Assembly (NCBI RefSeq): GCF_014207445.1
Contig: NZ_JACHEM010000001.1
Location: forward strand, 434,001-498,000
Direction: 5' to 3'
Length of the DNA: 64,000 nucleotides
Source of the DNA: Streptomyces candidus
Lineage (GTDB): Bacteria; Actinomycetota; Actinomycetes; Streptomycetales; Streptomycetaceae
The translations under genes were made by a program, and so were the position numbers. The notes beneath the pieces were generated by a model. The model ran no database searches, was not told where the DNA came from, and saw only the letters and a list, made by a program, of their open reading frames with translations. This document shows positions 28,666 through 42,525 of the stretch, one piece after another. Within the stretch, counting starts at the first letter, position 1. Each line of letters opens with the position of its first letter.

Positions 28666-30129
28666 GTGACGGCGATCCACGCGCAGCCGCACACGCAGCG
28701 AGTACGCCGTCGGGCCGAGCGTCGCCCCGAGCCGGAATCCCGTCCGGGATACCGGGAGCCGGGCTCCCGCCGGGCTGCACGTGCCCTTCGCGGCGGAGGG
28801 GCCCTCCGCGACGCACTGACGCTCGCGCTGCTGCCCCTCCCGCTCCTCGCGCTCGCCGTCGCCGCCACGCCCCTCGCCTTCACGGGCGGAGGCACCCGGC
28901 GGTGGTTCGGCGGGCGCAACGAGAGCGCGCGGGCCGACGCGCAGGCGGCGAAGGACGCGGCGGCGGCCGCCTTCTACGAGCTGGACACGGCACAGCGCGA
29001 CCTGCGGATCTCCATCGAGACGATCTCCGCGGTCGACAGCTCCCCCGGCGCGCAGCGCACGGCACAGCAGTTCGCCGCCCTCGGCAGGCGCATCGACGAG
29101 GCCAGCCACACCTACATCACCGCCGTCGACGCCCACGACCTGGAGCGCGACGACCTGGACGCGGGCGACGCGTCGCACGCCAGGACCGAGCTGGGCAAGG
29201 CCAAGGACGAACTGGTACGGGTCAAGGGCGAGCTCGACCGGTTCCAGCAGGGCCTCGGGCCGCTGCTCGACAAGGCGGAGACGCAGCTCGCACGGCTCGC
29301 CCCGGCGGTGGAGCGGGCCCGGCAGGGTCTGCTCGCCGCGAGCAACGCCCTGGACGCCGTACGGGCGGCGGGCCTGCGCGCGGACGACCTCGCCGCCAGG
29401 CTCGCGGCGCTCGCCCCCGAGCTGACCAAACTGAACCAGGGCGCCGGCCAGCACGGTGTGCCGGAAACCCTGGCGCGCGCCGAGCACGTGCAGCGGGACG
29501 CGGAGGCGGTACGGGCGGAAGCGGTACGGCTGCCCGAACGGGCGGCGGAGATCGACAAGCGCCTGGTGTCGCTCCGTACCCGGGCGCAGGCGCTGACCAC
29601 CCGCGCAGGCAAGGTCGATCCGGTGCTGAGCGAACTGCGCCGGCGGTTCACCGCGGCCTGCTGGCAGGACCTCCAGCAGGTACCCGACCAGGCCACGGAA
29701 AACGTGCGCCTGGCGGAGGAACGCCTCAAGGAAGCCGCACAGGCCCGCGCCGAACAGCGCTGGCCGGACGCCACGTCGCTCCTCAGTACCGTCCGTGCCC
29801 TCCTCAACGGCACCGACGAGGCCGTCTCCGCGGCGGGCGACCGTCTCCAGCGCCTCAACGCGGTCGCCAGGGACCCCCAGCAGGAGATACAGCGCACCCG
29901 CTTCGCGATCCGCGACGCCCAGCGCCTCGCGATGGCGGGACGCAACACCCCCGACCCCCGGCACGCGCGGCCGCTGGACGACGCGGTGGCCCGCCTGGAG
30001 CACGCCACCGCCGCCCTGGAGGGACGCCACCCCGACTACTGGCACTTCCTCACCGAAACGGAGGCGGTGCGCCGCACGGTGGCCCGTGTCGTGTCGGAGA
30101 TCCGCGAGGAGCGGGGCGCGGGAGCCTGA
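28666..30129 (+). CDS. Long coiled-coil protein with one transmembrane helix
   Basis: 487 residues from GTG 28666. An Arg-rich cytoplasmic leader is followed by one membrane helix (TLALLPLPLLALAVAATPLA, residues ~52-72). The remaining ~400 residues are almost wholly helical and rich in Ala, Arg, Glu and Leu with heptad patterns (RTELGKAKDELVRVKGELDR, QLARLAPAVERARQGLLAAS, AEAVRLPERAAEIDKRLVSL), implying a long coiled-coil or spectrin-like rod. No enzymatic motif is evident. Comparable streptomycete proteins are annotated only as hypothetical; a structural role at the membrane is plausible. Confidence 0.83.
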   Translation: MTAIHAQPHTQRVRRRAERRPEPESRPGYREPGSRRAARALRGGGALRDALTLALLPLPLLALAVAATPLAFTGGGTRRWFGGRNESARADAQAAKDAAAAAFYELDTAQRDLRISIETISAVDSSPGAQRTAQQFAALGRRIDEASHTYITAVDAHDLERDDLDAGDASHARTELGKAKDELVRVKGELDRFQQGLGPLLDKAETQLARLAPAVERARQGLLAASNALDAVRAAGLRADDLAARLAALAPELTKLNQGAGQHGVPETLARAEHVQRDAEAVRAEAVRLPERAAEIDKRLVSLRTRAQALTTRAGKVDPVLSELRRRFTAACWQDLQQVPDQATENVRLAEERLKEAAQARAEQRWPDATSLLSTVRALLNGTDEAVSAAGDRLQRLNAVARDPQQEIQRTRFAIRDAQRLAMAGRNTPDPRHARPLDDAVARLEHATAALEGRHPDYWHFLTETEAVRRTVARVVSEIREERGAGA

Positions 30130-30187
30130 ACGGCCGTCCCGGCGGGCATCCGCTGCCCTGGCCTGTCCGCTGCCTTAGCCTGTCCTC

Positions 30188-30406
30188 ATGCCCCGATACG
30201 AGTACCGCTGCCGCTCCTGCGGCACCACCTTCGAAGTGTCCCGTCCCATGGCCGAGTCGTCCGCCCCGGCCGCCTGCCCGGAGGGGCACGACGACACGGT
30301 CAAGCTGCTGTCCGCGGTGGCCGTGGGCGGCACCGCCGCCTCCTCGGGCCCGGCGCCCTCGGCCGGCGGGGGCGGCGGTTGCTGCGGTGGCGGCGGCTGC
30401 GGCTGA
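30188..30406 (+). CDS. FmdB-family zinc-ribbon protein
   Basis: 72 residues beginning MPRYEYRCRSCGTTFEVSRP, with a second Cys at AACPEGHDD, the CxxC...C pattern of FmdB/CxxC_CXXC_SSSS zinc ribbons. The C-terminus is Gly-rich and ends CCGGGGCG, adding further Cys residues. Family members are small putative regulatory proteins first noted beside formamidase genes; the function is unresolved. In this copy the second metal-binding knuckle is Cys-x-x-x-His-like (CPEGH) rather than Cys-x-x-Cys. Confidence 0.88.
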   Translation: MPRYEYRCRSCGTTFEVSRPMAESSAPAACPEGHDDTVKLLSAVAVGGTAASSGPAPSAGGGGGCCGGGGCG

Positions 30407-30473
30407 ACCCCCGCCTCCCGTCCGGCCCGCGGAGCCGGTTTCACCGTGCGGGCGAGAGCGTGACGTCGCTCGT

Positions 30474-31133
30474 TCACCGTTTGCGCGAGAGCGTGATGCC
30501 GTCCGACACCGGCAGCATCACGCTCTCCATCCGCCTGTCGGCCGCCACGTGCGCGTTGAACTCCTTGATGGCCGCCCCGCCCCCGGTCGCGTCCGGGTCG
30601 ACGACCGCACCGCCGTACAGCACGTTGTCGCTGACGATCAATCCGCCCTGCCGCAGCCTGGGCACCAACTCCTCCCAGTAAGCGATGTAGTTGACCTTGT
30701 CGGCGTCGAGGTAGGCGAGGTCGATGTGCGGCTCGTCCGGCATCGCCCGCAGGGTGTCCCGCGCGGGCGCGATCCGCAGTTCGATCCGGTCCGCGACCCC
30801 TGCCCGGGCCCAGGCCTCGCGGCCGTACGCCGTCCACTCCTCCGACACGTCGCAGGCGATCAGCCTGCCGTCCCGCGGCAGTGCCTGTGCCATCGACAGG
30901 GCCGAGAAGCCGGTGAAGGTCCCGACCTCGACGATGTGGCGCGCACCGGTCAGCCGCACCAGGAAGGCCAGCAACGGCCCCTGTTCCTCGGCGGACTGCA
31001 TCATGGCGGAGTCCGGGAACCGCTCCCAGGTCGTCCTGATCAGCTCCCGCTGCACCGCGTCCAACGGCGGGTTGTGCGCGAGGACGTAGGCGTACAGCTC
31101 GTCGGTGATCTTCGTGGTGTTGCCCTTGCTCAT
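30474..31133 (-). CDS. SAM-dependent O-methyltransferase (methyltransferase-3 family)
   Basis: 219 residues from ATG 31133. It shows the catechol/caffeoyl-CoA O-methyltransferase pattern: IVEVGTFTGFSALSMAQALP (motif I), LIACDVSEEWTAYGREAWAR (acidic residue binding the ribose of SAM), IDLAYLDADKVNYIAYWEEL (metal-binding Asp residues), and GGLIVSDNVLYGG (Asp-Asn metal ligands). It probably methylates a catechol-like or other hydroxylated aromatic metabolite in a Mg2+-dependent manner. It is monocistronic and divergent from the DedA gene at 31359; a block of tandem repeats sits in the gap. Confidence 0.92.
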   Translation of the reverse strand: MSKGNTTKITDELYAYVLAHNPPLDAVQRELIRTTWERFPDSAMMQSAEEQGPLLAFLVRLTGARHIVEVGTFTGFSALSMAQALPRDGRLIACDVSEEWTAYGREAWARAGVADRIELRIAPARDTLRAMPDEPHIDLAYLDADKVNYIAYWEELVPRLRQGGLIVSDNVLYGGAVVDPDATGGGAAIKEFNAHVAADRRMESVMLPVSDGITLSRKR

Positions 31134-31252
31134 GCGCTGCTCCCCAGATACCCGAGTACGGCCAGCATCCGGCGACCTTATCCATGGCTCTCGCCCGGAC
31201 CGGGCTTGTTGCAGACCGTGTTGGCGTGTCGCTCGTACGGGGAGCGGACGAC

Positions 31253-31299
31253 AACCCCCGCAACCCCCGCAACCCCCGCGGCGCACCGCGGCGCACCGC
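31253..31299. repeat. Short tandem repeats: AACCCCCGC x3 then GGCGCACCGC x2
   Basis: Three perfect 9-mers (31253-31279) are directly followed by two perfect 10-mers (31280-31299) in the divergent gap between the O-methyltransferase and DedA genes. Such arrays are prone to slippage and could alter promoter spacing. Confidence 0.8.
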
Positions 31300-31358
31300 G
31301 CCCGTTCCGGCGGTCTTCTTCAGTGTGCGTTCAGGGACGGGCCTCTAGCGTGGAACGC

Positions 31359-32021
31359 ATGATCGAAACCAGCGCGGGCAGCGCACCTCAGTGGATCAAC
31401 AGCCTCATGGACACCATGGGTGCTCCGGGCGCCGGTCTCGCCATCGCCCTGGAGAACCTCTTCCCGCCGCTGCCGAGCGAAGTGATCCTGCCGCTGGCGG
31501 GCTTCTCGGCGGGGGCGGGGCAAATGAGCCTGTGGGCCGCCCTGTTGTGGACGACGGCGGGTTCGGTGATCGGTGCGCTCGCGCTGTACGGAGTGGGCGC
31601 CCTGCTCGGGCGTGACAGGACGGTGGCGATAGCGGAGAAGATCCCGCTGGTGAAGGTCTCCGACATCGAACGGACCGAGGCGTGGTTCGCCAGGCACGGG
31701 ACGAAGGCGGTGCTCTTCGGCCGGATGATTCCGCTCTTCCGCAGCTTCATCTCCGTGCCGGCCGGCATCGAGCGGATGCCGCTGCCGGTGTTCCTGGGGC
31801 TCACCACGCTGGGCAGCGCGGTGTGGAACACCATGTTCGTGATGGCCGGATATCTGCTGGGGGACAACTGGGCGCAGGTGTCGGGTTATGTCTCCGTGTA
31901 TTCGAAGGTGGTGCTGGCCGTGGCGGTGCTCGCCGTGGCGGCCCTCGTGGCGGCTCGCGTCGTCAAGAACAAGAGGAAGCGCCGGCAGTCGTGTCCCGCG
32001 TCCGGGCGGACGCGCGGATGA
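31359..32021 (+). CDS. DedA family (VTT-domain) membrane protein
   Basis: 220 residues from ATG 31359. The features of DedA are clear: ALENLFPPLPSEVILPLAGF (N-terminal amphipathic/re-entrant segment with Glu and Pro), GALALYGVGALLGRDRTVAI, the conserved GRMIPLFRSFISVPAGIERM (Arg and Pro essential in E. coli YqjA/DedA), and TTLGSAVWNTMFVMAGYLLG. It likely helps scramble membrane phospholipids or sustain the proton motive force. Compared with the DedA protein at 26532, it retains the classical FRSFISVPAG core. It is convergent with, and overlaps by 59 bp, the HAD gene of the Ter island. Confidence 0.92.
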   Translation: MIETSAGSAPQWINSLMDTMGAPGAGLAIALENLFPPLPSEVILPLAGFSAGAGQMSLWAALLWTTAGSVIGALALYGVGALLGRDRTVAIAEKIPLVKVSDIERTEAWFARHGTKAVLFGRMIPLFRSFISVPAGIERMPLPVFLGLTTLGSAVWNTMFVMAGYLLGDNWAQVSGYVSVYSKVVLAVAVLAVAALVAARVVKNKRKRRQSCPASGRTRG

Positions 32022-32955
32022 ACTGCCGCAGGATCTCCTCTCCCGCCGCGATCCCGTTCTCGGCGAGGGCGGTGACCTGTGGGGCACTCCAGCCGGAGTC
32101 GGCGAGTTCGCCGTGGCCGGGGCGCCAGCCCCGGTCGGCGGCGAGCAGGAGGTCCGCGTCGAGGAGGGAGTCACCGGCGGCGAGAGTGAGTGCGGCACCG
32201 GTGCGGCGGGCGACCTCGCGGACGGCGGCGCTCTTGGTGAGCGGGTCGGGCACGACGTAGATCTTGCGGCCCTGGAGGGAGACGTTCCAGCCGCGTGGCG
32301 CGGCCCAGGCGGCGAGTTCCTTGACCCAGCCGTCCGGGAGCAGGGCGCGCTCGACGACGAGGTAGGCGAAGAGGTCCTCGGCGACCCTGTCCTTCAGCAG
32401 CCAGGCGGGGTCGGCACTGCGGGCGAGGTGGGCGCGGATCTCGGCGAGCGGGGCACACTCGTCGGCGAGCCGGCGGGCCACCTGTCGCTGCCAGTCCGGG
32501 TCGGAGACCCCGTCGACGAGGAGGTGCCCGCCGTTGGCGCAGATCGCGAACTCCGGTGCCGGACCGGGCAGGTGGATGCGGTGGTACTGCTCGCGGGTGC
32601 GGGTCGTGGTGGGGACGAAGAGGGTGTCCGGGCTTCCCGACGCGAGCCGGACGAGCAGCTCGGCGGCGGTCTCGGTGACGTACGAGAGCGGCTTCGAGTC
32701 GTACACCTCTACGCACAGCAGGCGGGGGGCCTCGGCGTCGGGCATGCGCAGGCCGAGCGCGGCGGAGGAGTAGATCAGGGTGCGGTCGAGGTCGCTGGCG
32801 ACGAGGACGGGGGCGGGGGCAGGCACCGGGGCTGTCCTGGGGTCGGGGGCGGGCCGCGGAGCGGTCCCGGGGGCGGCAGTGGCGGGGGGCGTGCGGTCGT
32901 GGAGCGCGGCCCGCGGGCCGGCCGGCTCGGCGAAGGGGCGTGCGGGGCTGCTCAC
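31963..32955 (-). CDS. HAD-superfamily hydrolase of the Ter stress island
   Basis: 330 residues from GTG 32955, overlapping the phosphoribosyltransferase stop by 4 bp. After a Pro/Ala-rich leader of ~50 residues, motif I reads VLVASDLDRTLIYSS (nucleophile Asp and +2 Asp). A C2-type cap region follows (HRIHLPGPAPEFAICANGGH) and the late motif LAAGDSLLDADLLLAADRGW supplies the Mg2+-binding Asp pair. It resembles the Cof/SPP-type HAD proteins encoded in ter gene clusters. Published genomic-context analysis of Ter systems proposed that the aldolase, phosphoribosyltransferase and HAD proteins make and trim a nucleoside-like metabolite; that would make this the phosphatase step. Confidence 0.88.
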   Translation of the reverse strand: MSSPARPFAEPAGPRAALHDRTPPATAAPGTAPRPAPDPRTAPVPAPAPVLVASDLDRTLIYSSAALGLRMPDAEAPRLLCVEVYDSKPLSYVTETAAELLVRLASGSPDTLFVPTTTRTREQYHRIHLPGPAPEFAICANGGHLLVDGVSDPDWQRQVARRLADECAPLAEIRAHLARSADPAWLLKDRVAEDLFAYLVVERALLPDGWVKELAAWAAPRGWNVSLQGRKIYVVPDPLTKSAAVREVARRTGAALTLAAGDSLLDADLLLAADRGWRPGHGELADSGWSAPQVTALAENGIAAGEEILRQFIRASARTRDTTAGASSCS

Positions 32956-35639
32956 TTGGTGCCGACCGTCTTGCCGTCGGCACCGGTGGCGCCCCTGGTG
33001 AAGCGGGGATGGATCAGGCCGACGCAGGTGTACGGCAGGTGGTCGACCTCCTCGACGGGGACGCCGCGCTGCTCGGCGAGGAGCCGTACGTGGCGCAGGT
33101 CGGCGTCGGCGCCGCGGCGGGCGAGGATCTTCCAGGGGACGCGGCGCAGCAGGACGCGGGTGGTCTCGCCCACCCCGGGCTTGACGAGGTTGACGTCGTG
33201 GATGCCGTACTCCTCGCTGATGCGTTCCACGGCGGCCCAGCCGTCCCAGGTGGGGGTGCGGTCCAGTCCCTGGAGTGCCTTGGCCTCGGTGTCGACGGCG
33301 TCGGCCACCTCCTCGAAGCGGGCGGCGACCGAGTCGAGGAAGAGGGCGGAGACGTCGTTGCCGACGAGGTCGCGGTAGAACTTTCCGCCGTGGAAGTCGT
33401 GCGGGCCCACCAGGTCGGCGCGCAGCACGGTGCGCGAGATCAGGCCGGAGACGGTGGAGTTGAGGCAGGCGGAGGGGATGAGGAAGTCCTCCTGGGTGCC
33501 GTAGGTGCGCACACACGACCCCGGGTCGGCGAGGACGGCGATCTCCGGGTCGAAGCCGTGGCGCGCGTCGACGCCTTCGGCCCGGTGGAACGCGGCGACG
33601 GCGTCGGCGAGTTCGCGGGTGATGGCGCCCTTGCCGGTCCAGCCGTCGACGAAGACGACGTCGGCCGGGTCGTGGTGGGCCGCCAGCCAGCGCAGCGCGT
33701 TCGCGTCGATGCCGCGGCCCCGGACGATGGACACCGCGTAGTGCGGCAGGTCGAGGCCGTGGCGGTACTGCGCCCAGCGGCGCATCAGGACGCCGACGGG
33801 GGTGCCCGCGCGGGCGAGGGAGACCAGGACCGGGCGGGGGGACCGCTCGGCGAGGACGGTTTCGGTGACGACGCCGACCGCCTGCGCGATCCGTGCCGCC
33901 GACTCGTCCAGTGCCGTGCGGAACAGCTCCTGGTACTCGGGCGTCGGCTGGTACTCGACCGGCAGCGACTCCGCGTAGTGGGCGCCGCCGGCCTGGATCG
34001 CCTCCTCGCGCTCCTCCGTGGGTGCTTCCAGGGTCACGTCCGAGAGGTCCTGGAGCAGCCAGCCGACGTCATCGGGTGCGTAGGAGGAGAAGCCGGGGCC
34101 CCGGAGCGGCTCGGGGAGCGGCGCGGGGAGGTGTTCGGGCACGGAGGGCTCCAGGGCCGACGAGGAAGGCGGGGAGGAAGAGGAGGGCTGGAGGGAGGAA
34201 GGGGAAGGTGCGGGGGCGTAGGAGGGCAGGACGGCGAGCAGGACGCGGCCGGTGTGCGCGGCGAGGCGGGCCAGCAGGCCGTCGGGGGCGTGCAGCGAGG
34301 GCGTGTCGGCCACGGAGTCGACGACGACGAGCACGGCGTCGAAGCCCGCACCGGACGTGCCGCCGGCGACGTTGTAGGCGTACCGCTCGCCGGGCCCGTC
34401 GGCGGGGTCGTCGTGGGCGGGGAAGACGAGCCGGGTACGGATCGCGTAGCCCGGGTCGTCGACGGCGAGTACCGGCGAACGGGTCGTGGTGGAGTACCGG
34501 ACGTGTGCCCCGGTGCGGTTCTCCAGCTCCTGGGCGAGGCGCAGCGGCGCGTACATCAACTCCTCGAAGCCGAGGACCAGTACGCGCGCGTCCTCGGGCA
34601 GCTCCCCCAGCGCGGCGGCGGCCCGGCCGGCCATGGCGGGCAGGGCGTCCTCCAGCGCGGTCCGGTGCGCCGGGGTGAAACCGTGCCGACCGCCGTCGGG
34701 AATCGCGGCGGGCCAGCCCAGTTCCACCCGTACGACCTCGGCGGCCCCGGCGCCCCCGGTCCCGGCACCGGCCCCGTCCTCGGCGTCCTTGACCCCGGCT
34801 CCGGAAAGCCCTGTCACGGCACCGGCCCCGGCGGCCGAAGTGGCGCGCCGCTGTCGCGTCTCCTCCTGCTCGACCAGCTGCCGGCCCGTCTCCAGGACGT
34901 TCTGTGGCAGTCGCACCGTGCCGGAGGCCCTGGCGAGGAGGTCGACGCGGGCGCCGATCGCGTCGGCGAAGGCGGCGAGCCGGGCGTGGTCCTGCGGGGA
35001 GCGCATGTCGACGAGGGCGACGACGACGTACCGTTCGCGCGGATTGCGGGCGTGCAGGTCGCGGATGGTGTTCAGGACGGTGTTCCCCGTGGAGAACTCG
35101 TCGTCGACGAGGACCAGCGGCCCGTCCGAGGCCAGGAGCGCGGGGTCCTCGGGCAGCAGCAGGTGCGAGGTGGCGTGCGAGTGGGACTCCTCGAATCCGC
35201 CCGCGGCCGGGACGTCCTCGACCGGCCGCCGGGTGGAGTGGAGGTAGGGCGCCGCCGCGAGGCCGTCGGCCACGCAGTGACCGAGGCCCGTCGCCGTCTC
35301 GGCGTACCCGAGGACGACCGCACGGGCGGCGTCCCGGTCACCCAGCAGCTCGCGCACCCGCCGCCCGAGTTCGAACCCGGCCCCGTACACCAGGGAGGGC
35401 CGCTGGGGGACGTGCTTGCCGAGCACGTTCGACACGAGGAGGTGCGCCCGCTTGGGGTTGCGCCGCAGCGCCAGCCCCAGCAGGTCGGTCAGGGACTCGC
35501 CGCCGGCCAGGACACCGCCCGTGCCGCCGCCCGCGGCGTCACCCTCCACCAGTTCCACACCCAGTCGTTCCGCGACCCAGCTACCGGACCACACCACGTC
35601 GTTGTTCTCTCTTCTCTGTTTCATCGGCCGGTCCGTCAT
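32952..35639 (-). CDS. Phosphoribosyltransferase-TRSP-StiP fusion protein of the Ter island
   Basis: 895 residues. The N-terminal ~270 residues form a phosphoribosyltransferase (PRTase_2 type) with the PRPP-binding loop VLVDDEFSTGNTVLNTIR at about residues 176-192, preceded by GYAETATGLGHCVADGL. A middle TRSP-type domain (VLVLGFEELMYAPLRLAQEL) follows. After a Ser/Pro linker (~470-505), the C-terminal ~380 residues match the StiP/PRTase_1 family: LVSLARAGTPVGVLMRRWAQ, VVFVDGWTGKGAITRELADA and LIPSACLNSTVSGLISRTVL. Although called cysteine protease StiP in databases, this domain looks like a second phosphoribosyltransferase. ATG 35624 is an alternative start. It lies between the CitE-like aldolase (22-bp gap) and the HAD gene. 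Confidence 0.88.
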   Translation of the reverse strand: MTDRPMKQRRENNDVVWSGSWVAERLGVELVEGDAAGGGTGGVLAGGESLTDLLGLALRRNPKRAHLLVSNVLGKHVPQRPSLVYGAGFELGRRVRELLGDRDAARAVVLGYAETATGLGHCVADGLAAAPYLHSTRRPVEDVPAAGGFEESHSHATSHLLLPEDPALLASDGPLVLVDDEFSTGNTVLNTIRDLHARNPRERYVVVALVDMRSPQDHARLAAFADAIGARVDLLARASGTVRLPQNVLETGRQLVEQEETRQRRATSAAGAGAVTGLSGAGVKDAEDGAGAGTGGAGAAEVVRVELGWPAAIPDGGRHGFTPAHRTALEDALPAMAGRAAAALGELPEDARVLVLGFEELMYAPLRLAQELENRTGAHVRYSTTTRSPVLAVDDPGYAIRTRLVFPAHDDPADGPGERYAYNVAGGTSGAGFDAVLVVVDSVADTPSLHAPDGLLARLAAHTGRVLLAVLPSYAPAPSPSSLQPSSSSPPSSSALEPSVPEHLPAPLPEPLRGPGFSSYAPDDVGWLLQDLSDVTLEAPTEEREEAIQAGGAHYAESLPVEYQPTPEYQELFRTALDESAARIAQAVGVVTETVLAERSPRPVLVSLARAGTPVGVLMRRWAQYRHGLDLPHYAVSIVRGRGIDANALRWLAAHHDPADVVFVDGWTGKGAITRELADAVAAFHRAEGVDARHGFDPEIAVLADPGSCVRTYGTQEDFLIPSACLNSTVSGLISRTVLRADLVGPHDFHGGKFYRDLVGNDVSALFLDSVAARFEEVADAVDTEAKALQGLDRTPTWDGWAAVERISEEYGIHDVNLVKPGVGETTRVLLRRVPWKILARRGADADLRHVRLLAEQRGVPVEEVDHLPYTCVGLIHPRFTRGATGADGKTVGTK

Positions 35640-35661
35640 CGCGTCCGGGCGGGGTACCGCG

Positions 35662-36834
35662 TCAGTCCGCGAGCCGCGAGAGACCCGCGGTCAGGAGTTC
35701 CACGAAGCCGGTGTCCTCGCGCGCCACTCCGAACGTCTCGGCGCGCAGCAGGGTGCGCTCCGCCCACGTCCGGTGCGGCTTCACCTCGTTCATCTTGTTG
35801 GTGTACGCCGAGCGCAGCACCCCGCCCCCGCCCCGGTCCGGCCGCAGGATGTCCCGGGCGTCGCTGTACTCCTCGTGGCTCACCACGGACAGCGCGTGCA
35901 CGGGCAGGACGTGCGAGGGGTGGATGCAGGTCTTGCCGAGCAGTCCGTTGGCCCGGTCGAGGGCGATCTCGCGCAGCAGCCCGTCCATGTCGTGCGCGAT
36001 GAGCGCGGTGCGCAGTTCCTCGGCCTGCCCCTCCATGAAGGGGCTGCGGCGCAGCTGCGGTTTGAACATGCGCACCTGGGCGCGGAAGTACTCCCACACC
36101 GGCCCGGTGATGGTGAAGCCGGTGCCGTCGGAACGGCCGAGCACGTTCACCACGTCGCCAATGACCGAGGCGACGATCTGGACGTCGTACGCCGTCATGT
36201 CGGGCGCCCGGCGCAGTCCGTACGCGGAGCAGAAGTCGGTGACGCCCAGGCGCAGCGCGAGCACCCGGTCGCGGTACTTGTCGACGGTACGGGCGATGCC
36301 GCGCAGGGTCTCCGCCCGGGTTTCCAAGTGCAGGAGTTCCGGGGACTCCAGGACGGGCATCGCGAAGAGCCGTCTGCCGCCCGCCGCCTCGGCCGCCGTC
36401 AGCGCCTCCAGGAACGCGACGCCACGCTCCTCGGTGAACTTCGGAAGTACGAATCCGGACAACAGCCGGGCGGCGTCGCCGAGCCTGTGCACGAGGTCCG
36501 GCATCTGTTCCGGTTCACGTACCCGGACGAACAGCAGCGGGGTCTCGCGGCCGCACGCCGCCAGCTCGGTGAGCTGGCGCACCAGATTCTCCTCGGCGCC
36601 CTCGACCTCCGTGTCGTCGATCGAATCCTCCAGGCAGAGCACCATGGAGACCACGCCGCGCCCGGCCTGCTTGAGTACGTCGGCGGCGAGCGAGGGCCGG
36701 GTCGCCGGGCTGTACAGCGTGGCGCCGAGTGCCACCGCGAGCGTGCGCGCCGGGGAGTCCGCGTCAAAGACGAGCGGCTCCACATGGAAAAGGTCCTTCC
36801 GCACCGAGGCAGGAATATGCCCGAAATGACGCAT
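35662..36834 (-). CDS. HpcH/HpaI aldolase/citrate-lyase-like protein of the Ter island
   Basis: 390 residues from ATG 36834. It is a CitE-like TIM-barrel protein: MVLCLEDSIDDTEVEGAEEN supplies the acidic metal-site residues, FVRVREPEQMPDLVHRL and GFVLPKFTEERGVAFLEAL the core strands, then ALRLGVTDFCSAYGLRRAPD and GKTCIHPSHVLPVHALS, where the last motif is typical of CitE/HpcH enzymes. It may perform an aldol or acyl-lyase step on a sugar- or acid-derived precursor. It is first of a three-gene operon with the phosphoribosyltransferase fusion and the HAD protein, and divergent from a TerD gene; an 11/12-match inverted repeat lies in that gap. Confidence 0.88.
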   Translation of the reverse strand: MRHFGHIPASVRKDLFHVEPLVFDADSPARTLAVALGATLYSPATRPSLAADVLKQAGRGVVSMVLCLEDSIDDTEVEGAEENLVRQLTELAACGRETPLLFVRVREPEQMPDLVHRLGDAARLLSGFVLPKFTEERGVAFLEALTAAEAAGGRRLFAMPVLESPELLHLETRAETLRGIARTVDKYRDRVLALRLGVTDFCSAYGLRRAPDMTAYDVQIVASVIGDVVNVLGRSDGTGFTITGPVWEYFRAQVRMFKPQLRRSPFMEGQAEELRTALIAHDMDGLLREIALDRANGLLGKTCIHPSHVLPVHALSVVSHEEYSDARDILRPDRGGGGVLRSAYTNKMNEVKPHRTWAERTLLRAETFGVAREDTGFVELLTAGLSRLAD

Positions 36835-36865
36835 GTGAGTACCCCTGTGCTGGCGCGTGGACTGT

Positions 36866-36904
36866 GGACATGTGGCCGGTAATAGTACGTAGGGCCACGT
36901 GTCC
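36866..36904. promoter_or_regulatory. Inverted repeat between divergent aldolase and TerD genes
   Basis: GGACATGTGGCC (36866-36877) and GGCCACGTGTCC (36893-36904) are complementary at 11 of 12 positions with a 15-bp spacer. The site lies 31 bp upstream of the aldolase start, where an operator for a dedicated regulator would be expected. Confidence 0.55.
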
Positions 36905-37025
36905 GTAGTTCCCCTGTCGCATGAACTCCAGGTAACCCGCGGCGTCCGGCCCCGGTCCTACCCATGCCCCCGACGGTACGGGACACGCCCCCCCACGTTG
37001 TCCCCGCACGCCTCGGGGGGGCAGG

Positions 37026-37907
37026 ATGACCGGCATGACGCACGCGATGCTGAAGGGCGCGAACGTACCCCTCGACGCTACGGCCGTACGGGCCGTGCTC
37101 CGGTGGACCCCCGGCCCCGGCATCCCCGACGTGGACGCCTCCGCCCTGCTGGTCGGGCCGGACGGGCGGGTGCGCGCCGACGAGGACTTCGTCTTCTACA
37201 ACCACGTCCGCCACCCCTCCGGCCTGGTGCGCAAGCTGTCCAAGAAGCGGATCCCCGAGGGCAACACCGACACCGTCGTGGCCGATCTGTCCTCGCTGGC
37301 GCTCGACGCCTCCGTCGACCGGGTGGTGGTGGCGGCCTCGCTCGACGTGGAGTCCTTCGAGGGCGCCACCTTCGAGCACGTACGGGACCTGCGGATCCTG
37401 CTGTACGACGCGACCGTCGCCGGAGCGGAGCCGCTCGCCGTGTTCGACGTGAAGCCGGAGACGGGCGAGGAGACGGCCGTGATCTGCGGCGAGGTCTACC
37501 GGCGCGGTGAGGGCTGGAAGTTCCGTGCGGTGGGGCAGGGGTATCCGACCGGACTGATCGGCCTGGCCACCCAGTTCGGCGTCTCGGTGGACGAGAGCGA
37601 GGCGGCGGAGGGCGCCGGCCCCGCCCGTACCGGGCCCGCCGAGGGGGCGGCCACCCAGGCTGCCCCGGGTCCCACCGCGGAGCCCGGTACCCAGGCGGCG
37701 CCCCCGGCCTCCTCCCCCGCCCAGCCGGCCTACGGTTATCCGCACCCGGCGCCGCCCCGGCCGCAGTCCCCGCCCGCCTACGGCTACCCGCAGTCCGCGT
37801 CCACCCAGCCGGCGTACGGCTACCCGCAGCCCGCCGCCGCGGCGGCCCACGCCCCGGACCCGAACTTCCGGCTGCCCCCGATGGGCCCCCAGTTCATCCG
37901 CGGCTGA
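37026..37907 (+). CDS. TerD-domain protein with Tyr-Gly-Tyr-Pro-rich tail
   Basis: 293 residues (ATG 37026; ATG 37035 is an equally possible start). Residues ~5-195 form a TerD domain: MLKGANVPLDATAVRAVLRW, VDASALLVGPDGRVRADEDF, FYNHVRHPSGLV and [20 protein letters not shown]. Compared with the paired TerD proteins at 40-41 kb, parts of the calcium-binding acidic loop are changed (GDGDD/GEGDD is replaced by EGNTDT). The last ~95 residues are a disordered Ala/Pro-rich tail with repeated AYGYP units (37729-37840), suitable for protein or membrane association. It is divergent from the aldolase operon and is probably a peripheral Ca2+-sensing component. Confidence 0.9.
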   Translation: MTGMTHAMLKGANVPLDATAVRAVLRWTPGPGIPDVDASALLVGPDGRVRADEDFVFYNHVRHPSGLVRKLSKKRIPEGNTDTVVADLSSLALDASVDRVVVAASLDVESFEGATFEHVRDLRILLYDATVAGAEPLAVFDVKPETGEETAVICGEVYRRGEGWKFRAVGQGYPTGLIGLATQFGVSVDESEAAEGAGPARTGPAEGAATQAAPGPTAEPGTQAAPPASSPAQPAYGYPHPAPPRPQSPPAYGYPQSASTQPAYGYPQPAAAAAHAPDPNFRLPPMGPQFIRG

Positions 37908-38006
37908 CCCGGCTCCCGTCGCCGCGCGGGCCCCGGGCGCCGGTCGGCCCGCCCGTGGGCGGGGTTGCGTGCCGCTCGGACGGCCCGCCCCCGGGCCGAG
38001 GGCGGG

Positions 38007-38768
38007 TCAGGCCTTCGTCTTGTAGCCGCGGCCCCACTGCAGACCCCAGCCGTACAGTCGGTCGAGTTCGGCCTGGAACCCGTAGACGAACTTGACCTCG
38101 CGCCGCACGGTCAGCCCGTCCTTGGTGTTCTCGATGGTGAAGACGGCGCAGGAGCGGGCCTGCGGGGCACGTTCGTCGAGGGCGATCTCGATGCGCGGCC
38201 CGTTGCTGGGGTAGAGCGTGACGACGGCCTGCGTCCGGTCGAAGGCCGGGGTCTGGTCGTAGATGTACACGAAGACCAGGAGCCGCTTGATCTGTTCGCG
38301 GTGGTCGAGGTTGATGAAGACGGTCTCGCCGGAGGGGGCGCCGAACCGGTCGTCGCCGCTGAGCTTGACGTACGGCGGGTCGTTCATGTCGCCGAAGAAG
38401 CCGCCGAGGGGCTGTACGACGCCCTTGGTGCCGTCCCGCAGCTCGTAGAGGCAGCCGAGGTCCAGGTCGACGTTGACGACGCCCTGGGTGTGTGCCTGGA
38501 CGGTCTCGGGCTGGAAGAACTTGAAGGGGCGGCCCAGCAGGCTGCCGGAGTGCTTCTGCCGGCCGCCTATGTCGGAGGTGCGCATCCGCCAGGAGAGGTT
38601 GACCCGCAGGCTGCCGGTGTCGGCGCCCTGCTTGCTGAGCGAGACCACCGGATGTCGCTTGGTCAGCTCGATGGAGTTGGTCGCGGCGCTGCCCGAGTCG
38701 AACTGCGCGGACCTGCTCGGCTGCAAGCCGCCCAGCACACCCTGCCTGAGCCTGTCCCAGAAGGTCAT
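38007..38768 (-). CDS. TerA/TerD-like tellurium resistance family protein
   Basis: 253 residues from ATG 38768 (GGGTGGGTCGG upstream; a GTG 15 bp earlier is possible). After LRQGVLGGLQPSRSAQFDSG the body contains strands of a TerD-like beta-sandwich: IELTKRHPVVSLSKQGADTG, LRVNLSWRMRTSD, VVNVDLDLGCLYELRDGTKG, LLVFVYIYDQTPAFDRTQAV and CAVFTIENTKDGLTVRREVK, ending WGLQWGRGYKTKA. The DLDLGCLYEL and DGTKG motifs are those of TerA-type proteins. It is co-directional with the DUF475 and terD genes but separated from them by a hairpin terminator. Confidence 0.82.
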   Translation of the reverse strand: MTFWDRLRQGVLGGLQPSRSAQFDSGSAATNSIELTKRHPVVSLSKQGADTGSLRVNLSWRMRTSDIGGRQKHSGSLLGRPFKFFQPETVQAHTQGVVNVDLDLGCLYELRDGTKGVVQPLGGFFGDMNDPPYVKLSGDDRFGAPSGETVFINLDHREQIKRLLVFVYIYDQTPAFDRTQAVVTLYPSNGPRIEIALDERAPQARSCAVFTIENTKDGLTVRREVKFVYGFQAELDRLYGWGLQWGRGYKTKA

Positions 38769-38813
38769 CCGACCCACCCCCACCCCTGTGTCCCCATGCC
38801 CCTCGACACCCCG

Positions 38814-38858
38814 ACGGGGCGGTCGCGGCGGGCCGTTGGGCCCGTGCGACCGCCCCGT
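38814..38858 (-). terminator. Terminator hairpin downstream of DUF475 gene
   Basis: 13-bp perfect arms (38814-38826 and 38846-38858) 29 bp after the DUF475 stop on the minus strand. Confidence 0.75.
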
Positions 38859-38886
38859 GGAGAAGCGTTCCTCAAACTGCCGCGTG

Positions 38887-40035
38887 TCACACCCCGGAGG
38901 AGACTTCGTCCCGCTTCCCCGGACTGGATCCGCCCGCGCCTTCCTCGGCCGCGATCCGCTTGTTGCGGCGGACCGAGGTCAGGAAGGACGCGGCGATCAG
39001 GAGGATACCGACGGAACCGGTGATGATCTCGTGGATCTCGTGCTGGATGGTGATGAGCAGGATCGCCGCCAGGGCGCCGATCGCGTAGTGCGCACCGTGC
39101 TCCAGGTAGACGTAGTCGTCGAGGGTGCCCTCGCGGACCAGGTAGATCGTCAGCGAACGCACGTACATGGCGCCGATACCGAGGCCGAGCGCCATCCAGA
39201 AGATGTGGTTCGTGATGGCGAAGGCGCCGATGACTCCGTCGAACGAGAACGAGGCGTCGAGGACTTCGAGGTACAGGAAGAGGAAGAACGCCGCCTTGCC
39301 GGCCAGACCGACCGCGGAGACCGGCTTGCCCTGCTTCTTGGCCTTCTCCTCCAGCTCGTGCTCGCGCTCCTCGTCCTCCTCCAGCTTGTTCTCGAAGTGG
39401 CCGGAGAGGCCGCCGACGATCAGGTACGTGATCAGACCGGCCACTCCCGCGAGCAGCACGGTGGACGTCTTGTCCGCGTGCCCGGTGCTGGTGTGTGCCT
39501 GGGTGGCGAACGTGAGGGAGGCGCCGAGCAGCACGATGAGCGCGACGCACACCGACAGCATGTCGACCTTGCCGAGCTTGGCGAGGGGACGCTCCAGCCA
39601 GGCGAGCCACTTGATGTCACGGTCCTCGAAGATGAAGTCGAGGAAGATCATCAGGAGGAACATGCCACCGAAGGCGGCGATCGACGCGTGCGCGTCGGTC
39701 ACCAGGGCCTCGTACCTCTCCGGCTGGTCCATGGCCAGCTCGACGGCTTCGATCGGTCCGACCGAGGCGCTGATCGCCACGATGACGACGGGGAACACCA
39801 GCCGCATGCCGAAGACGGCGATCAGGATGCCGATCGTCAGGAAGATCTTCTGCCAGAAGGCATTCATCTTCTTGAGGATTCCGGCGTTGACAACCGCATT
39901 GTCGAAGGACAGAGAGATTTCGAGGATGGACAGGATCAACACGATCCCGAACGCCTCCCACCCCCACTGCCAGGCGGCGAAGGCAAGGCCGAGCGCAGTG
40001 ACTGCGAACGACCAGCCGAAGGTTTTCAGGACCAC
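38887..40035 (-). CDS. DUF475 (TerC-like) integral membrane protein
   Basis: 382 residues from GTG 40035, beginning MVLKTFGWSFAVTALGLAFA. About ten helices are visible. The TerC-superfamily signature occurs twice: ILSILEISLSFDNAVVNAGI in the first half and LYLEVLDASFSFDGVIGAFA in the second, each with Glu and Ser-Phe-Asp-(Asn/Gly) that probably bind a metal ion in the membrane. Between them is a charged cytoplasmic loop (NKLEEDEEREHELEEKAKKQ). TerC/DUF475 proteins are implicated in metal-ion export and in loading secreted metalloproteins with Mn2+. It lies 28 bp downstream of a terD gene and is probably co-transcribed with it. Confidence 0.93.
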   Translation of the reverse strand: MVLKTFGWSFAVTALGLAFAAWQWGWEAFGIVLILSILEISLSFDNAVVNAGILKKMNAFWQKIFLTIGILIAVFGMRLVFPVVIVAISASVGPIEAVELAMDQPERYEALVTDAHASIAAFGGMFLLMIFLDFIFEDRDIKWLAWLERPLAKLGKVDMLSVCVALIVLLGASLTFATQAHTSTGHADKTSTVLLAGVAGLITYLIVGGLSGHFENKLEEDEEREHELEEKAKKQGKPVSAVGLAGKAAFFLFLYLEVLDASFSFDGVIGAFAITNHIFWMALGLGIGAMYVRSLTIYLVREGTLDDYVYLEHGAHYAIGALAAILLITIQHEIHEIITGSVGILLIAASFLTSVRRNKRIAAEEGAGGSSPGKRDEVSSGV

Positions 40036-40063
40036 TGACTACCCCATCGTCTTGTAGCGGGCT

Positions 40064-40639
40064 TTACGAAACGTTGACCCCGAAGTCTAGAGCGATGCCT
40101 CGGAGGCCCGACGCATACCCCTGCCCCACAGCACGGAACTTCCATTCGCCGCCGTACCGGTAGACCTCGCCGAAGATCATCGCGGTCTCGCTGGAGGCGT
40201 CCTCACTGAGGTCGTAGCGGGCCAGCTCGTTGCCGTCCGCCTGGTTCACCACACGGATGAAGGCATTGCTGACCTGGCCGAACGTCTGCCCACGATTGTC
40301 CGCGTCATGAATCGAGACCGGAAAAATGATCTTGTCGACGGTCATCGGGACCTTGGAGAGATCGATGAGCAGCGACTCGTCGTCACCGTCGCCCTCGCCG
40401 GTCAGGTTGTCGCCCGTGTGCTCGACGGAGCCCTCCGGACTGGTGAGGTTGTTGTAGAAGATGAAGTACTCGTCGCCGAGCACCCGGCCGTCCTTGCACA
40501 GCAGTGCGCTGGCGTCCAGGTCGAAATCGGCCCCGGTGGTGGAACGTGCGTCCCAGCCGAGTCCGACGAGGATCCGGGTCAGGTTCGGAGCGGCCTTGGA
40601 GAGGGAGACATTGCCTCCCTTGGCGAGCGTGACGCCCAT
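40064..40639 (-). CDS. terD: TerD family calcium-binding stress protein (copy 2)
   Basis: 191 residues from ATG 40639. It shows the full TerD pattern: [60 protein letters not shown], the Ca2+-binding loop [18 protein letters not shown], then [20 protein letters not shown] and [20 protein letters not shown]. It is highly similar to the protein at 40751, so the two are tandem duplicates, separated by a perfect 15-bp hairpin. TerD binds Ca2+ and is linked to tellurite resistance, colicin/phage tolerance and, in Streptomyces, calcium homeostasis and development. Confidence 0.95.
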
Positions 40640-40678
40640 GTTCTTTCTTCCTCCCCGCGGTGAAGCTGTGGATAGGCG

Positions 40679-40712
40679 CGTCCGGCGCCGCACGAACGTG
40701 CGGCGCCGGACG
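40679..40712 (-). terminator. Hairpin between tandem terD genes
   Basis: 15-bp perfect arms (40679-40693 and 40698-40712) with a GAAC loop. It probably ends or attenuates the transcript of the upstream terD, giving unequal expression of the pair. Confidence 0.8.
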
Positions 40713-40750
40713 GGTGGTGCGTGACTGGCTCGCAGGCGTGCCGCCCCGGC

Positions 40751-41326
40751 TCAGACGTTGACGCCGAAGTCCTGGGCGATGCCGCGCAGGCCCGAGGCGT
40801 AGCCCTGGCCGATGGCGCGGAACTTCCACTCCGCACCGTTGCGGTAGAGCTCGCCGAAGACCATGGCGGTCTCGGTCGAGGCGTCCTCGCTGAGGTCGTA
40901 GCGGGCCAGCTCGTTGCCGTCCGCCTGGTTCACGACGCGGATGTACGCGTTGCGGACCTGGCCGAAGCTCTGCTGGCGGGACTCGGCCTCGTAGATCGAG
41001 ACCGGGAAGACGATCTTGGCGACATCGGCGGGTACGCCCGCCAGGTTCACCTTGATGACCTCGTCGTCTCCCTCGCCCTCACCGGTGAGGTTGTCACCGG
41101 TGTGCTCGACGGAGCCGTCGGGGCTCTTGAGGTTGTTGAAGAAGACGAAGTTCGAGTCGTTGGCGACCTTGCCGGCGTCGTTGGTGAGCAGCGCGCTGGC
41201 GTCGAGGTCGAAGTCGCCGCCGGTGGTGGTGCGCGCGTCCCAGCCCAGACCGACGATGACGGCCGTCAGGTTCGGCGCGGCCTTGGACAGCGAGACGTTT
41301 CCGCCCTTGCTGAGGCTGACTCCCAC
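40751..41326 (-). CDS. terD: TerD family calcium-binding stress protein (copy 1)
   Basis: 191 residues from ATG 41326. [60 protein letters not shown], the acidic loop [18 protein letters not shown] and [20 protein letters not shown] are all conserved. It is probably the counterpart of S. coelicolor SCO2368, for which a role in calcium homeostasis and in calcium control of a DosR-like regulon has been reported (from memory). A DosR-like palindrome lies 103 bp upstream of the start. The gene is first of the group terD, terD, DUF475 on the minus strand. Confidence 0.95.
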
Positions 41327-41428
41327 GAGTCCTCCAATGGTGTCGAGGGGCTCAGGGAGGCCCTGCCCCGTACTGCAGCTGGTATCGGATCAACGTGTCG
41401 ATCCTAGTGACCGGTTCCCTGATCCGGC

Positions 41429-41442
41429 AGGACTTAGGTCCC
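41429..41442. promoter_or_regulatory. DosR/DevR-like box upstream of terD
   Basis: On the minus strand GGGACCTAAGTCCT matches the DosR core GGGACTWWAGTCCC at 12 of 14 positions, and 15 of 20 with flanks. It is flanked by two direct copies of GGAACCGGT (minus strand), at 41450-41458 and 41411-41419. Confidence 0.5.
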
Positions 41443-41486
41443 GACTTACCGGTTCCGGGCGCAGCGGCGTGCGGACCGCCGCCGGG

Positions 41487-41969
41487 TCAGAGCGCGGCGA
41501 GGGCCCTGACGTACGCGTCGGGGTCACGGGCGTCGGGCAGGGCGTTGACGACCGCCCAGCGGACGACGCCGTCCTTGTCGATGACGAAGGTGCCGCGCAC
41601 CGCGCAGCCCTTGTCGGAGTCGAAGACGCCGTAGGCCCGTGCGACGTTGCCGTGCGGCCAGAAGTCGGACAGCAGCGGGTACTCCAGGTCCTCCTGCTCG
41701 GCGAAGACGCGCAGGGTGTGCATGGAGTCGCAGGAGACGGCGAGGAGCTGGACGTCCTCGTTGACGAAGGTCTGCGAGGCCTCGCGCAGGGCCCGCAGCT
41801 CGTCGGTGCAGACCCCGGTGAAGGCGAAGGGGTAGAAGACCAGCACCACGTGCCGCTCGCCCCGCAGGTCGGACAGGCGCACGGTGCGGCCGTGGTTGTC
41901 CTTGAGCGCGAAGTCCGGGGCGACGGAGCCCACCTCGGCAGCCGTGCCCGTTTCCGCCTCGATCGTCAT
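41487..41969 (-). CDS. AhpE-type peroxiredoxin
   Basis: 160 residues from ATG 41969. The thioredoxin-fold core contains LVFYPFAFTGVCTDELRALR, in which Cys54 is the peroxidatic cysteine within the usual Thr-x-x-Cys motif, followed by LLAVSCDSMHTLRVFAEQED, YPLLSDFWPHGNVARAYGVF and RGTFVIDKDGVVRWAVVNAL. This is the pattern of mycobacterial AhpE and related BCP-like enzymes, which reduce hydroperoxides in the cytosol. It lies downstream of DUF3052 and is separated from it by an intrinsic terminator, and upstream of the terD pair on the same strand. Confidence 0.93.
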   Translation of the reverse strand: MTIEAETGTAAEVGSVAPDFALKDNHGRTVRLSDLRGERHVVLVFYPFAFTGVCTDELRALREASQTFVNEDVQLLAVSCDSMHTLRVFAEQEDLEYPLLSDFWPHGNVARAYGVFDSDKGCAVRGTFVIDKDGVVRWAVVNALPDARDPDAYVRALAAL

Positions 41970-42019
41970 GCGTGCCGCCGCTTCCTCGCCGTGGGGACCG
42001 TTCGCAACGAGCCTACGCA

Positions 42020-42055
42020 AAGGGCCCCCGCCGGTCTGCGCCGGAGGGGGCCCTT
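42020..42055 (-). terminator. Intrinsic terminator after DUF3052 gene
   Basis: 15-bp arms (42020-42034, 42041-42055) with one mismatch, followed on the minus strand by TTT. Confidence 0.8.
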
Positions 42056-42084
42056 CGTAGCTGCTCATGAGGTCGTTCCGGCTG

Positions 42085-42525
42085 CTAGCGCTTGCCGGAC
42101 TTCGCCGCCTTCGGGGTGACCAGGCGGCTGCCCGTCCAGTCCTTGCCCGCGTTGATGCTCTTGGTCTGCGAGAGACCGGCGGTCTGTGCGGCTTCGTTGA
42201 TGTCGCTCGGTTCGACATAGCCGTCACGGCCGGTCTTGGGGGTCATCAGCCAGACGGTGCCACCGTCGTCGACGAGCTGCGTGGCATCCACCAACGCGTC
42301 CGTCAGGTCGCCGTCCTCGTCCCTGAACCACAGGACGACGGCGTCAGCCACGTCGTCGTAGTCCTCGTCGACGAGTTCGCCGCCGATGATCTCCTCGATG
42401 GCGTCGCGGAGCTCCTGATCGACATCGTCGTCGAAGCCGATCTCCTGGACCACCTGCTCGGGCTGGAAACCCAGCCTCGCGGCAGGGTTGGTCCGCTCCT
42501 CCGCGTGGTCCGCGGTCGCGCTCAC
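42085..42525 (-). CDS. DUF3052 family protein
   Basis: 146 residues from GTG 42525 (AGGAGG upstream). It matches DUF3052: PAARLGFQPEQVVQEIGFDD, DVDQELRDAIEEIIGGELVD, DVADAVVLWFRDEDGDLTDA, TVWLMTPKTGRDGYVEPSDI and AQTAGLSQTKSINAGKDWTG. The protein is very acidic in its first half and basic at its end. The family is conserved across actinobacteria, commonly next to the aceE gene as here, and its function is unknown; a role linked to fatty acid or pyruvate metabolism is suggested only by synteny. Confidence 0.93.
   Translation of the reverse strand: MSATADHAEERTNPAARLGFQPEQVVQEIGFDDDVDQELRDAIEEIIGGELVDEDYDDVADAVVLWFRDEDGDLTDALVDATQLVDDGGTVWLMTPKTGRDGYVEPSDINEAAQTAGLSQTKSINAGKDWTGSRLVTPKAAKSGKR

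Follow-up and report, generated by a model that had tools for sequence, protein, structure and literature searches.

What do the enzymes encoded beside tellurium-resistance (Ter) genes make? In the portions of the literature available to us Ter gene sets are linked with tolerance of phage, colicin, metals and stress, and Anantharaman, Iyer and Aravind proposed in 2012 that two Ter-linked phosphoribosyltransferases (PRTases) produce a signal resembling a nucleotide or nucleoside, as relayed in the accessible parts of papers citing them (PMC7824862, PMC5512222, PMC8115787, PMC12054061). The product of the Ter enzymes is not named in any of the titles or abstract openings among the open-licence papers listed for the subject. 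The question is raised here by a 64,000-nucleotide (nt) stretch of Streptomyces candidus DNA (the window: assembly GCF_014207445.1, contig NZ_JACHEM010000001.1, positions 434,001 to 498,000, forward strand), in which a single 895-residue protein joins PRTase_2, TRSP, StiP and PELOTA_1 domains and is encoded between a CitE-like lyase and a phosphatase of the haloacid dehalogenase (HAD) superfamily. The locus is a conserved, non-mobile form of the known Ter-linked module, in a fused variant. Our preferred reading, which we hold to be about evenly balanced between right and wrong, is that the module uses ribosylation from phosphoribosyl pyrophosphate (PRPP) and then dephosphorylation by the HAD enzyme to give a nucleoside-like product, with an RNA-binding-type end on the transferase. 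A preliminary description of this DNA had proposed a ribosyl-containing or nucleoside-like product. That idea is the 2012 proposal; the PRTase_2 loop and the predicted folds speak for it, and an incomplete acid pair in StiP speaks against it. The enzyme genes and domains are as follows (aa, amino acids).

35662..36834, minus strand: CitE-like C-C bond lyase, 390 aa (PF15617, 408.7 bits)
32952..35639, minus strand: fusion PRTase_2-TRSP-StiP-PELOTA_1, 895 aa, single frame (Pfam)
34920..35483, minus strand: PRTase_2 domain, aa 53-240 (PF15609, 228.4 bits), with the PRPP loop LVLVDDEFSTGNT at aa 175-187
34272..34697, minus strand: TRSP domain, aa 315-456 (PF12500, 130.8 bits)
33327..34088, minus strand: StiP domain, aa 518-771 (PF11202, 349.6 bits), with the loop FVDGWTGKGAI at aa 663-673
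33009..33248, minus strand: PELOTA_1 or L7Ae-like domain, aa 798-877 (PF15608, 121.9 bits)
31963..32955, minus strand: phosphatase of the HAD superfamily, 330 aa, with a GTG start that falls inside the fusion stop (structure-chain matches, catalytic residues)

The aldolase-like lyase, fusion and HAD genes were thus found where the preliminary description had placed them in one operon. As only 22 nt separate the lyase from the fusion, and the fusion stop and the HAD start overlap by 4 nt, the spacing suggests that the three genes do form a single operon.

Predicted PRTase folds in the fusion protein

By its loop and predicted fold the PRTase_2 half is a type I phosphoribosyltransferase, its activity being a prediction. 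The loop follows the pattern [DE]-D-E-x-[ST]-T-G-x-T, in which D180, E181, T184, G185 and T187 were present in 96 of 96 rows and position 179 was D or E. Equally invariant (96/96) were E151, H153, S154 and H155 of an ExHSH stretch. The predicted model of aa 14-470 (predicted local distance difference score, pLDDT, 87.0; predicted template-modelling score, pTM, 0.90) has APRT, UPRT and XPRT as its nearest solved folds, APRT aligning at Z 13.5 over 174 residues with a root-mean-square deviation (rmsd) of 3.0, and nearly all of the 50 rows shown were named PRTases. By sequence the profile extends to an orotate PRTase (E 0.0007).

There is moderate support for reading TRSP as a PRTase repeat that has degenerated. 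Alignment of the TRSP and PRTase_2 profiles with hhalign gave 80.1% and 83.8% with all rows (E about 1e-5), 81.7% when actinomycetes were left out and 77.4% with one mixed pair of subsets, while none of 18 other profiles, some belonging to the same family, exceeded 1.5% and no reversed alignment exceeded 2.1%. Weakening the repeat reading, the value fell to 3.0% with actinomycete rows alone and to 14.0% with the other mixed pair. In the model the two segments repeat the same order of helices (H) and strands (E), H-E-H-E-hairpin-E-H-E, at offsets of 242-263 residues. The earlier count of two PRTase-like domains in the fusion therefore seems to be an undercount, TRSP being a putative third and degenerate one.

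The StiP half is also predicted to have a PRTase fold. For the model of aa 505-895 (StiP plus the C-terminus; pLDDT 92.7, pTM 0.91) the top row of the VIA comparison was CriT of Bcs3 (8a0c_A, residues 639-964; Z 10.9, 203 residues, rmsd 4.5), followed by PyrR (Z 9.9, 151 residues) and then by many HPRT and XPRT chains, the PRTase-fold chains among the 50 rows shown having Z 8.1-10.9. The typical best VIA Z for models without a clear match is 7-8, and the StiP matches are by this measure modest but consistent. Thirteen residues are invariant in 102 of 102 StiP rows: S607, R610, G612, H633, S637, D645, D665, G666, W667, G669, K670, G671 and I673. The kinship of PRTase_2 and StiP rests on fold, because profile comparison of the two gave just 1.0-1.4% (StiP against TRSP, 3.6%). 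The nearness of StiP to CriT and TRSP as a PRTase repeat are apparently unstated before, although no search aimed at prior notice of the latter was made.

The Pfam family name and the product names in plasmid records would make StiP a cysteine protease, and the preliminary description had named a protease activity of this half as a refuting case. A name alone tests nothing, and no cysteine proved invariant: the best column, C725, is Cys in 95 of the 102 rows, and the rows without it are all three from gammaproteobacterial plasmids, that of phage ME3 and three from Clostridia. Given also that the predicted fold is that of a PRTase, we rejected the protease assignment as unsupported and regard it as very improbable. 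At the level of titles, nothing resembling an experiment on StiP is evident among the open-licence papers listed for it, one of which, on gut enzymes, mentions StiP a single time.

A candidate route from PRPP to a dephosphorylated product

No Pfam family scored over its cut-off in the HAD enzyme, which matches two trehalose phosphatase chains at 1.8e-10. The HAD motifs DxDxT/K/GDxxxD (D9, D11, T13, K195, D216 and D220) were found in 73 of 73 module HADs, and by sequence the active site appears complete. Among the module lyases, E43, D44, E137 and D174 (numbering of the matched segment) are present in 84 of 85 and H279 in 85 of 85. These acids include what we take to be the metal site of CitE-like enzymes, and the lyase should be active.

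A precedent for pairing a PRTase fold with a HAD enzyme comes from capsule synthesis. According to the available part of PMC10299916, CriT is PRTase-like, acids in two of its loops hold the ribose, ribose-5-phosphate is transferred from PRPP to a hydroxyl, and the HAD domain CrpP removes the 5-phosphate after the CriT transfer. The portion of PMC12096443 at hand describes the same transferase and phosphatase pair in Cj1432, with C5 of a sugar as the position that receives the transferred group. Because the PRTase folds and complete HAD site of the Ter-linked module mirror CriT/CrpP and Cj1432, PRPP transfer followed by dephosphorylation appears by analogy to be the best-supported logic of the module.

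Most likely, the fusion would use PRPP twice or in two ways. To judge by fold and loop, PRTase_2 would attach ribose-5-phosphate to a nitrogen base or to an acceptor resembling one. The second PRTase-type site, in StiP, may serve to place ribose-5-phosphate on a different group or to accept it there, a hydroxyl being plausible by analogy with CriT, and the HAD enzyme would then remove the 5-phosphate to leave a ribosylated, nucleoside-like product. The CitE-like lyase might supply or trim an acyl building block, and the L7Ae-like C-terminus may tie the StiP site to RNA, either as substrate or as regulator. Sensing and the membrane side of the system would probably fall to TerD, TerA and DUF475, a published idea for Ter systems. 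Two ribosyl transfers by the fusion are thus possible. The preliminary description had suggested this or a transfer and its reversal, and had called for a check that both PRPP loops are intact. In the N-terminal half the loop is intact in every row and the predicted fold is APRT-like. The PRTase fold of StiP also speaks for the suggestion, whereas the StiP loop, DGW-GKG, retains one acid and its acid pair is incomplete.

Several findings weigh against the proposed route. The loop FVDGWxGKGxI of StiP has one acid where a DD pair is expected, the second position being Gly (G666) in 102 of 102 rows, and the SLARAG loop of StiP holds no acid at the place where CriT, as judged by sequence, has D680. 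CriT and PyrR differ by just 1.0 in Z, which is a near tie. With Foldseek alone the first StiP rows were meaningless (TM 0.18), HPRT and PyrR appearing lower at E 0.004-0.008, and a sequence search with a profile of the 102 StiP rows, taken as far as E 10, reached neither a PRTase nor a CriT chain. A HAD gene lies within 9 kb of StiP in just 30 of 60 well-flanked Bacillota-type loci, and two divergent actinomycete loci show none, which means that the operon does not always include the HAD step. No ATPgrasp_Ter gene was found in the window locus. Finally, Klebsiella terZ-F alone confers tellurite resistance on E. coli MG1655, as stated in the accessible part of PMC8115787. The module enzymes are therefore not needed for tellurite resistance and serve something else or something more.

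The RNA-binding-type end

The PELOTA_1 domain, missed in the preliminary description, follows StiP in 102 of 102 rows. Its profile matches L7Ae chains from E 0.0038, and its predicted fold is nearest to ribosomal L30e, NHP2, Snu13 and L7Ae rows at Z 8.2-9.0. The stretch K-P-G-x-G-E-T-T-R of the domain aligns with K-x-G-x-N-E-T-T-K of L7Ae, E825 and R828 being present in 102 of 102 rows. We take the Asn-Glu pair to be the RNA-contact loop of L7Ae and Pelota domains; at the Asn position PELOTA_1 has Gly in 98 rows, Ala in three, Ser in one and Asn in none.

These features raise the possibility that RNA is the acceptor. StiP-PELOTA would then add ribose-5-phosphate to a tRNA or rRNA nucleotide in the manner of Rit1, and the HAD enzyme would trim the phosphate. 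In the part of PMC7694415 available to us, yeast Rit1 modifies A64 or G64 of the initiator tRNA to PRPP-derived Ar(p) or Gr(p), and the RNA ribosylation reading is possible because this precedent exists. The L7Ae-type domain behind every StiP, the two invariant residues aligned with the NE..K stretch of L7Ae, and a top fold match, CriT, that makes O-ribosides all favor it. We nevertheless consider it unlikely, since the L7Ae Asn is replaced by Gly in nearly all rows, and since the presence of PRTase_2, the lyase and, in other loci, ATP-grasp suggests a small molecule. We know of no fold that Rit1 has in common with StiP.

The same C-terminal domain could instead belong to a regulator resembling PyrR, in which the PRTase fold of StiP senses PRPP or the product and controls expression through RNA binding, PRTase_2 being the sole enzyme. 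PyrR ranks near the top of the fold matches (Z 9.9), the DD pair of StiP is degenerate, an RNA-binding-type domain is attached, and a citing paper, in the part available, lists 'RNA-dependent regulation' for Ter systems. Thirteen residues invariant in 102 of 102 rows suit catalysis better than sensing, and the 18.7-kb stretch that carries a lone StiP copy (locus L145) contains neither PRTase_2 nor any Ter gene. Moreover, PyrR binds RNA with its PRTase body and not through an L7Ae domain. We think this account somewhat less probable than RNA as acceptor.

A wider proposal would make Ter modules a bacterial RNA ribosylation system: StiP-PELOTA would O-ribosylate structured RNA by means of PRPP and the L7Ae-like domain, PRTase_2-TRSP, as a duplicated PRTase, would make a cognate small ribotide, the HAD enzyme would trim both, and translation would be altered under phage or metal stress. 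We put this forward as a speculation, a little more doubtful again than the PyrR-like account. Under the preferred reading of PRPP transfer and dephosphorylation, two active sites, a likely HAD step, an RNA-binding-type end and a duplicated TRSP make the vague 'nucleoside-like metabolite' testable.

Conservation, partners and known systems

The preliminary description called the locus an island. Of 150 genomes of the genus, 147 have a StiP match above the cut-off and the remaining three are assemblies of 550-1420 contigs; in 26 of 26 genus loci (25 fetched out of the 147 plus the window itself) the order is identical: aceE, DUF3052, TerD, TerD, DUF475, TerA-like, diverging TerD, lyase, PRTase_2, StiP and HAD. 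A peroxiredoxin gene was matched in each of the 26. The synteny profiles were our own, built from few seeds that included window genes. This presence and single gene order beside aceE led us to reject a mobile or horizontally moving stress island. The core copy in this genus, which is probably tractable and harmless, is a good place for assays of Ter enzymes. The neighboring features are as follows.

40751..41326, minus strand: TerD, 191 aa (PF02342, 287 bits; order kept in 26 of 26 genus loci)
40064..40639, minus strand: TerD, ATG at 40639 (PF02342, 276.1 bits; start chosen from alignment, the listed frame beginning upstream at 40693)
38887..40035, minus strand: DUF475 or TerC-family membrane protein, 382 aa (PF04332, 437.2 bits; PF03741, 68.6 bits)
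38007..38783, minus strand: TerA-like protein, 258 aa (sub-threshold TerD match, 0.019)
37026..37907, plus strand: divergent TerD with a Pro/Ala-rich tail (PF02342, 145.1 bits; alignment; tail read from translation)
36885..36913, minus strand: conserved element GGGAAC-N17-ACGTAC upstream of the lyase, between it and the diverging TerD
43032-45764, plus strand: aceE, beside the Ter set
28666..30129, plus strand: coiled-coil protein, probably with a membrane segment, related to HYP36 (Prescottella locus L036, 7576-8766)

On the minus strand the order of transcription is TerD, TerD, DUF475 and TerA-like, then lyase, fusion and HAD. The enzyme operon had been described as facing a TerD/TerA/DUF475 set; these genes share its strand, and the sole gene diverging from the lyase is the TerD at 37026-37907 (+). 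As to the set itself, two TerDs and DUF475 were confirmed by Pfam, whereas the TerA-like gene has no Pfam match at 0.01 and only the sub-threshold TerD match. It does group with a 'Tellurium resistance' gene at the equivalent place in Prescottella L036, in our own profile built from both. In the alignment the plus-strand TerD is without a 13-residue stretch common to the other two TerDs. From gene order we presume that the TerD pair corresponds to SCO2367/SCO2368 of S. coelicolor, and SCO2368 is reportedly linked with calcium, going by the title of one study. The Ter set adjoins aceE in all 26 genus loci, and a Klebsiella screen, in the part available to us, names aceE among tellurite-resistance genes, which may be coincidence.

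The element upstream of the lyase occurs in 23 of the 26 genus loci, always with a spacer of 17, and in 0 of 200 simple shuffles. Genome-wide there are three exact sites, and 52 with at most one mismatch against 14 for a reversed control pattern; the pattern being too loose and unspecific, we rejected naming a regulon from it. Rfam at gathering scores gave no matches in 30000-44000, the search for sigma-70-type promoters found none, and terminators were at chance level.

The association of StiP with PRTase_2 extends beyond the genus. When 246 genomes of the phylum were drawn, StiP and PRTase_2 passed their cut-offs in the same 11 (a twelfth StiP match fell below the StiP cut-off), so the association is not due to chance, and the only lyases above 400 bits in that draw sit in 10 of those 11 genomes. 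The two domains share one frame in 23 of 26 genus loci and in two other actinomycete loci (L142, L143), and lie in separate frames in 3 of 26 genus loci and 81 of 90 other loci; on 7 of the 90 stretches, some ended by a contig end, PRTase_2 was not found. The non-actinomycete loci were the best 80 of 583 confirmed relatives, mostly from one scan with a clostridial-type first query row, and are biased to Bacillota. Of the 81 unfused pairs, 75 are within 300 nt and the remainder 530-979 nt apart, the latter including three gammaproteobacterial plasmids and phage ME3, where the HAD gene lies between. Primary StiP matches in open frames above 800 aa numbered 136 over the 147 genomes, which fits fusion without proving it. 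Among the three splits within the genus, that in L147 (a stop, then an ATG within a few bases) looks real, and those in L146 and L149, with overlapping frames, could be natural or sequence errors.

A tree was built from 47 of the 102 StiP rows; its bootstrap had yet to converge, and it was flagged for long branches. On it the fused label needs three changes, two of them forced by well-supported branches, and all fall inside one actinomycete group (17 rows, support 99/98). The fusion is a lineage-limited variant, and two separate proteins serve elsewhere. It ties the amounts of the PRTase_2 and StiP halves together.

The core of the module is the PRTase_2/StiP pair, and the other partners vary. 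For Bacillota-type loci partners were counted in the 60 with at least 4 kb on either side of StiP, 21 of 81 being dropped for short flanks; counts in other groups took in loci with short flanks too. Within 9 kb of StiP the 60 loci hold PRTase_2 in 57, the lyase in 43, HAD in 30, ATP-grasp in 12 and TerD in 34. All five are present in 3 of 3 gammaproteobacterial plasmid loci. In line with PRPP transfer followed by dephosphorylation, phage ME3 keeps PRTase_2, HAD and StiP, and its 22.8-kb stretch shows neither lyase nor ATP-grasp. Neither HAD nor lyase is found in the divergent actinomycete loci L144 and L145. The lone gene of L145 (9674-10762, minus strand), a second StiP-PELOTA copy in genome G267, lies beside what look by eye like zinc-type dehydrogenase and transposase-like frames.

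ATPgrasp_Ter, which we take to be a module part although not a universal one, passed its cut-off at two partial places on other contigs of the S. candidus genome (39.2 and 31.8 bits). These were not counted as a Ter partner because the model is promiscuous and also fires in 13 of 14 control genomes. No ATPgrasp_Ter was found near StiP in 3 of 3 actinomycete loci outside the genus, unfused or fused, or in 48 of the 60 Bacillota-type loci, and ATP-grasp was rejected as a fixed partner. In a Pseudomonas aeruginosa plasmid (L037, 8698-9837, plus strand) a TerD-like segment fused to a trypsin-like peptidase lies between ATP-grasp and PRTase_2. A clostridial-type Ter set labelled bacteriophage (L041, 5595-14804) has neighbors that look bacterial by eye, and the label is doubtful.

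The coiled-coil protein at 28666-30129 is possibly an overlooked partner. It is 37% identical over 202 aa to HYP36, the first gene product of the unfused Prescottella operon, and is the sole HYP36 match in the 7.4-Mb genome (2.2e-28). A relative was found in 13 of the 26 genus loci, 25 of which hold less than 4 kb beyond StiP on that side. A HYP36-type gene heads the lyase operon in Prescottella and in two other actinomycete loci.

Among known systems, the solved PRTases APRT, XPRT and UPRT share the fold and a DDxxxTGxT-type loop with PRTase_2, which differs by its added TRSP repeat and ExHSH stretch. CriT/CrpP of Bcs3 (Haemophilus influenzae b) and Cj1432 (Campylobacter jejuni) combine a PRTase-fold, PRPP-dependent transferase with a HAD phosphatase, much as predicted PRTase folds and a HAD enzyme are combined here. 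In contrast, CriT has the acids D680 and E818, whereas StiP has D665 alone at that loop and shows no sequence match; the acceptors of CriT and Cj1432 are capsule acceptors, and no L7Ae domain is described for them, whereas StiP carries one. D645 is a candidate for the second acid of StiP. StiP thus appears to resemble CriT, a likeness rather than membership. L7Ae, L30e and Pelota have in common with PELOTA_1 the fold and a K-x-G-x-x-E-T-T-R-type stretch, but here the Asn is mostly replaced by Gly and the domain is fused to a PRTase fold.

The closest systems are Ter-linked modules themselves, and the window locus is one of them, with PRTase_2-TRSP, StiP-PELOTA, HAD and lyase genes and linked TerD and TerC-family genes. 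Ter gene sets are widespread on plasmids, part or all of the fusion protein being matched in 2567 of 72,556 plasmid records. As here, the plasmid and phage modules of the IncHI2 type have PRTase_2-TRSP, StiP-PELOTA, HAD and C-C lyase beside TerD/TerC (ME3 being without the lyase), whereas the window locus has one chain, no ATPgrasp_Ter and a core that is syntenic on a chromosome-sized contig, not a plasmid. Plasmid p1-WH99 of Prescottella equi has the same order of lyase, PRTase_2-TRSP, StiP-PELOTA and HAD together with TerD, DUF475 and TerA-like genes, its two halves being 48% and 60% identical to those of the fusion. There, in contrast, the halves are two genes, additional TerB, VWA and TerD genes are present, and HYP36 heads the operon, whereas the relative in S. 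candidus lies on the opposite strand, at a distance of about 1.8 kb from HAD.

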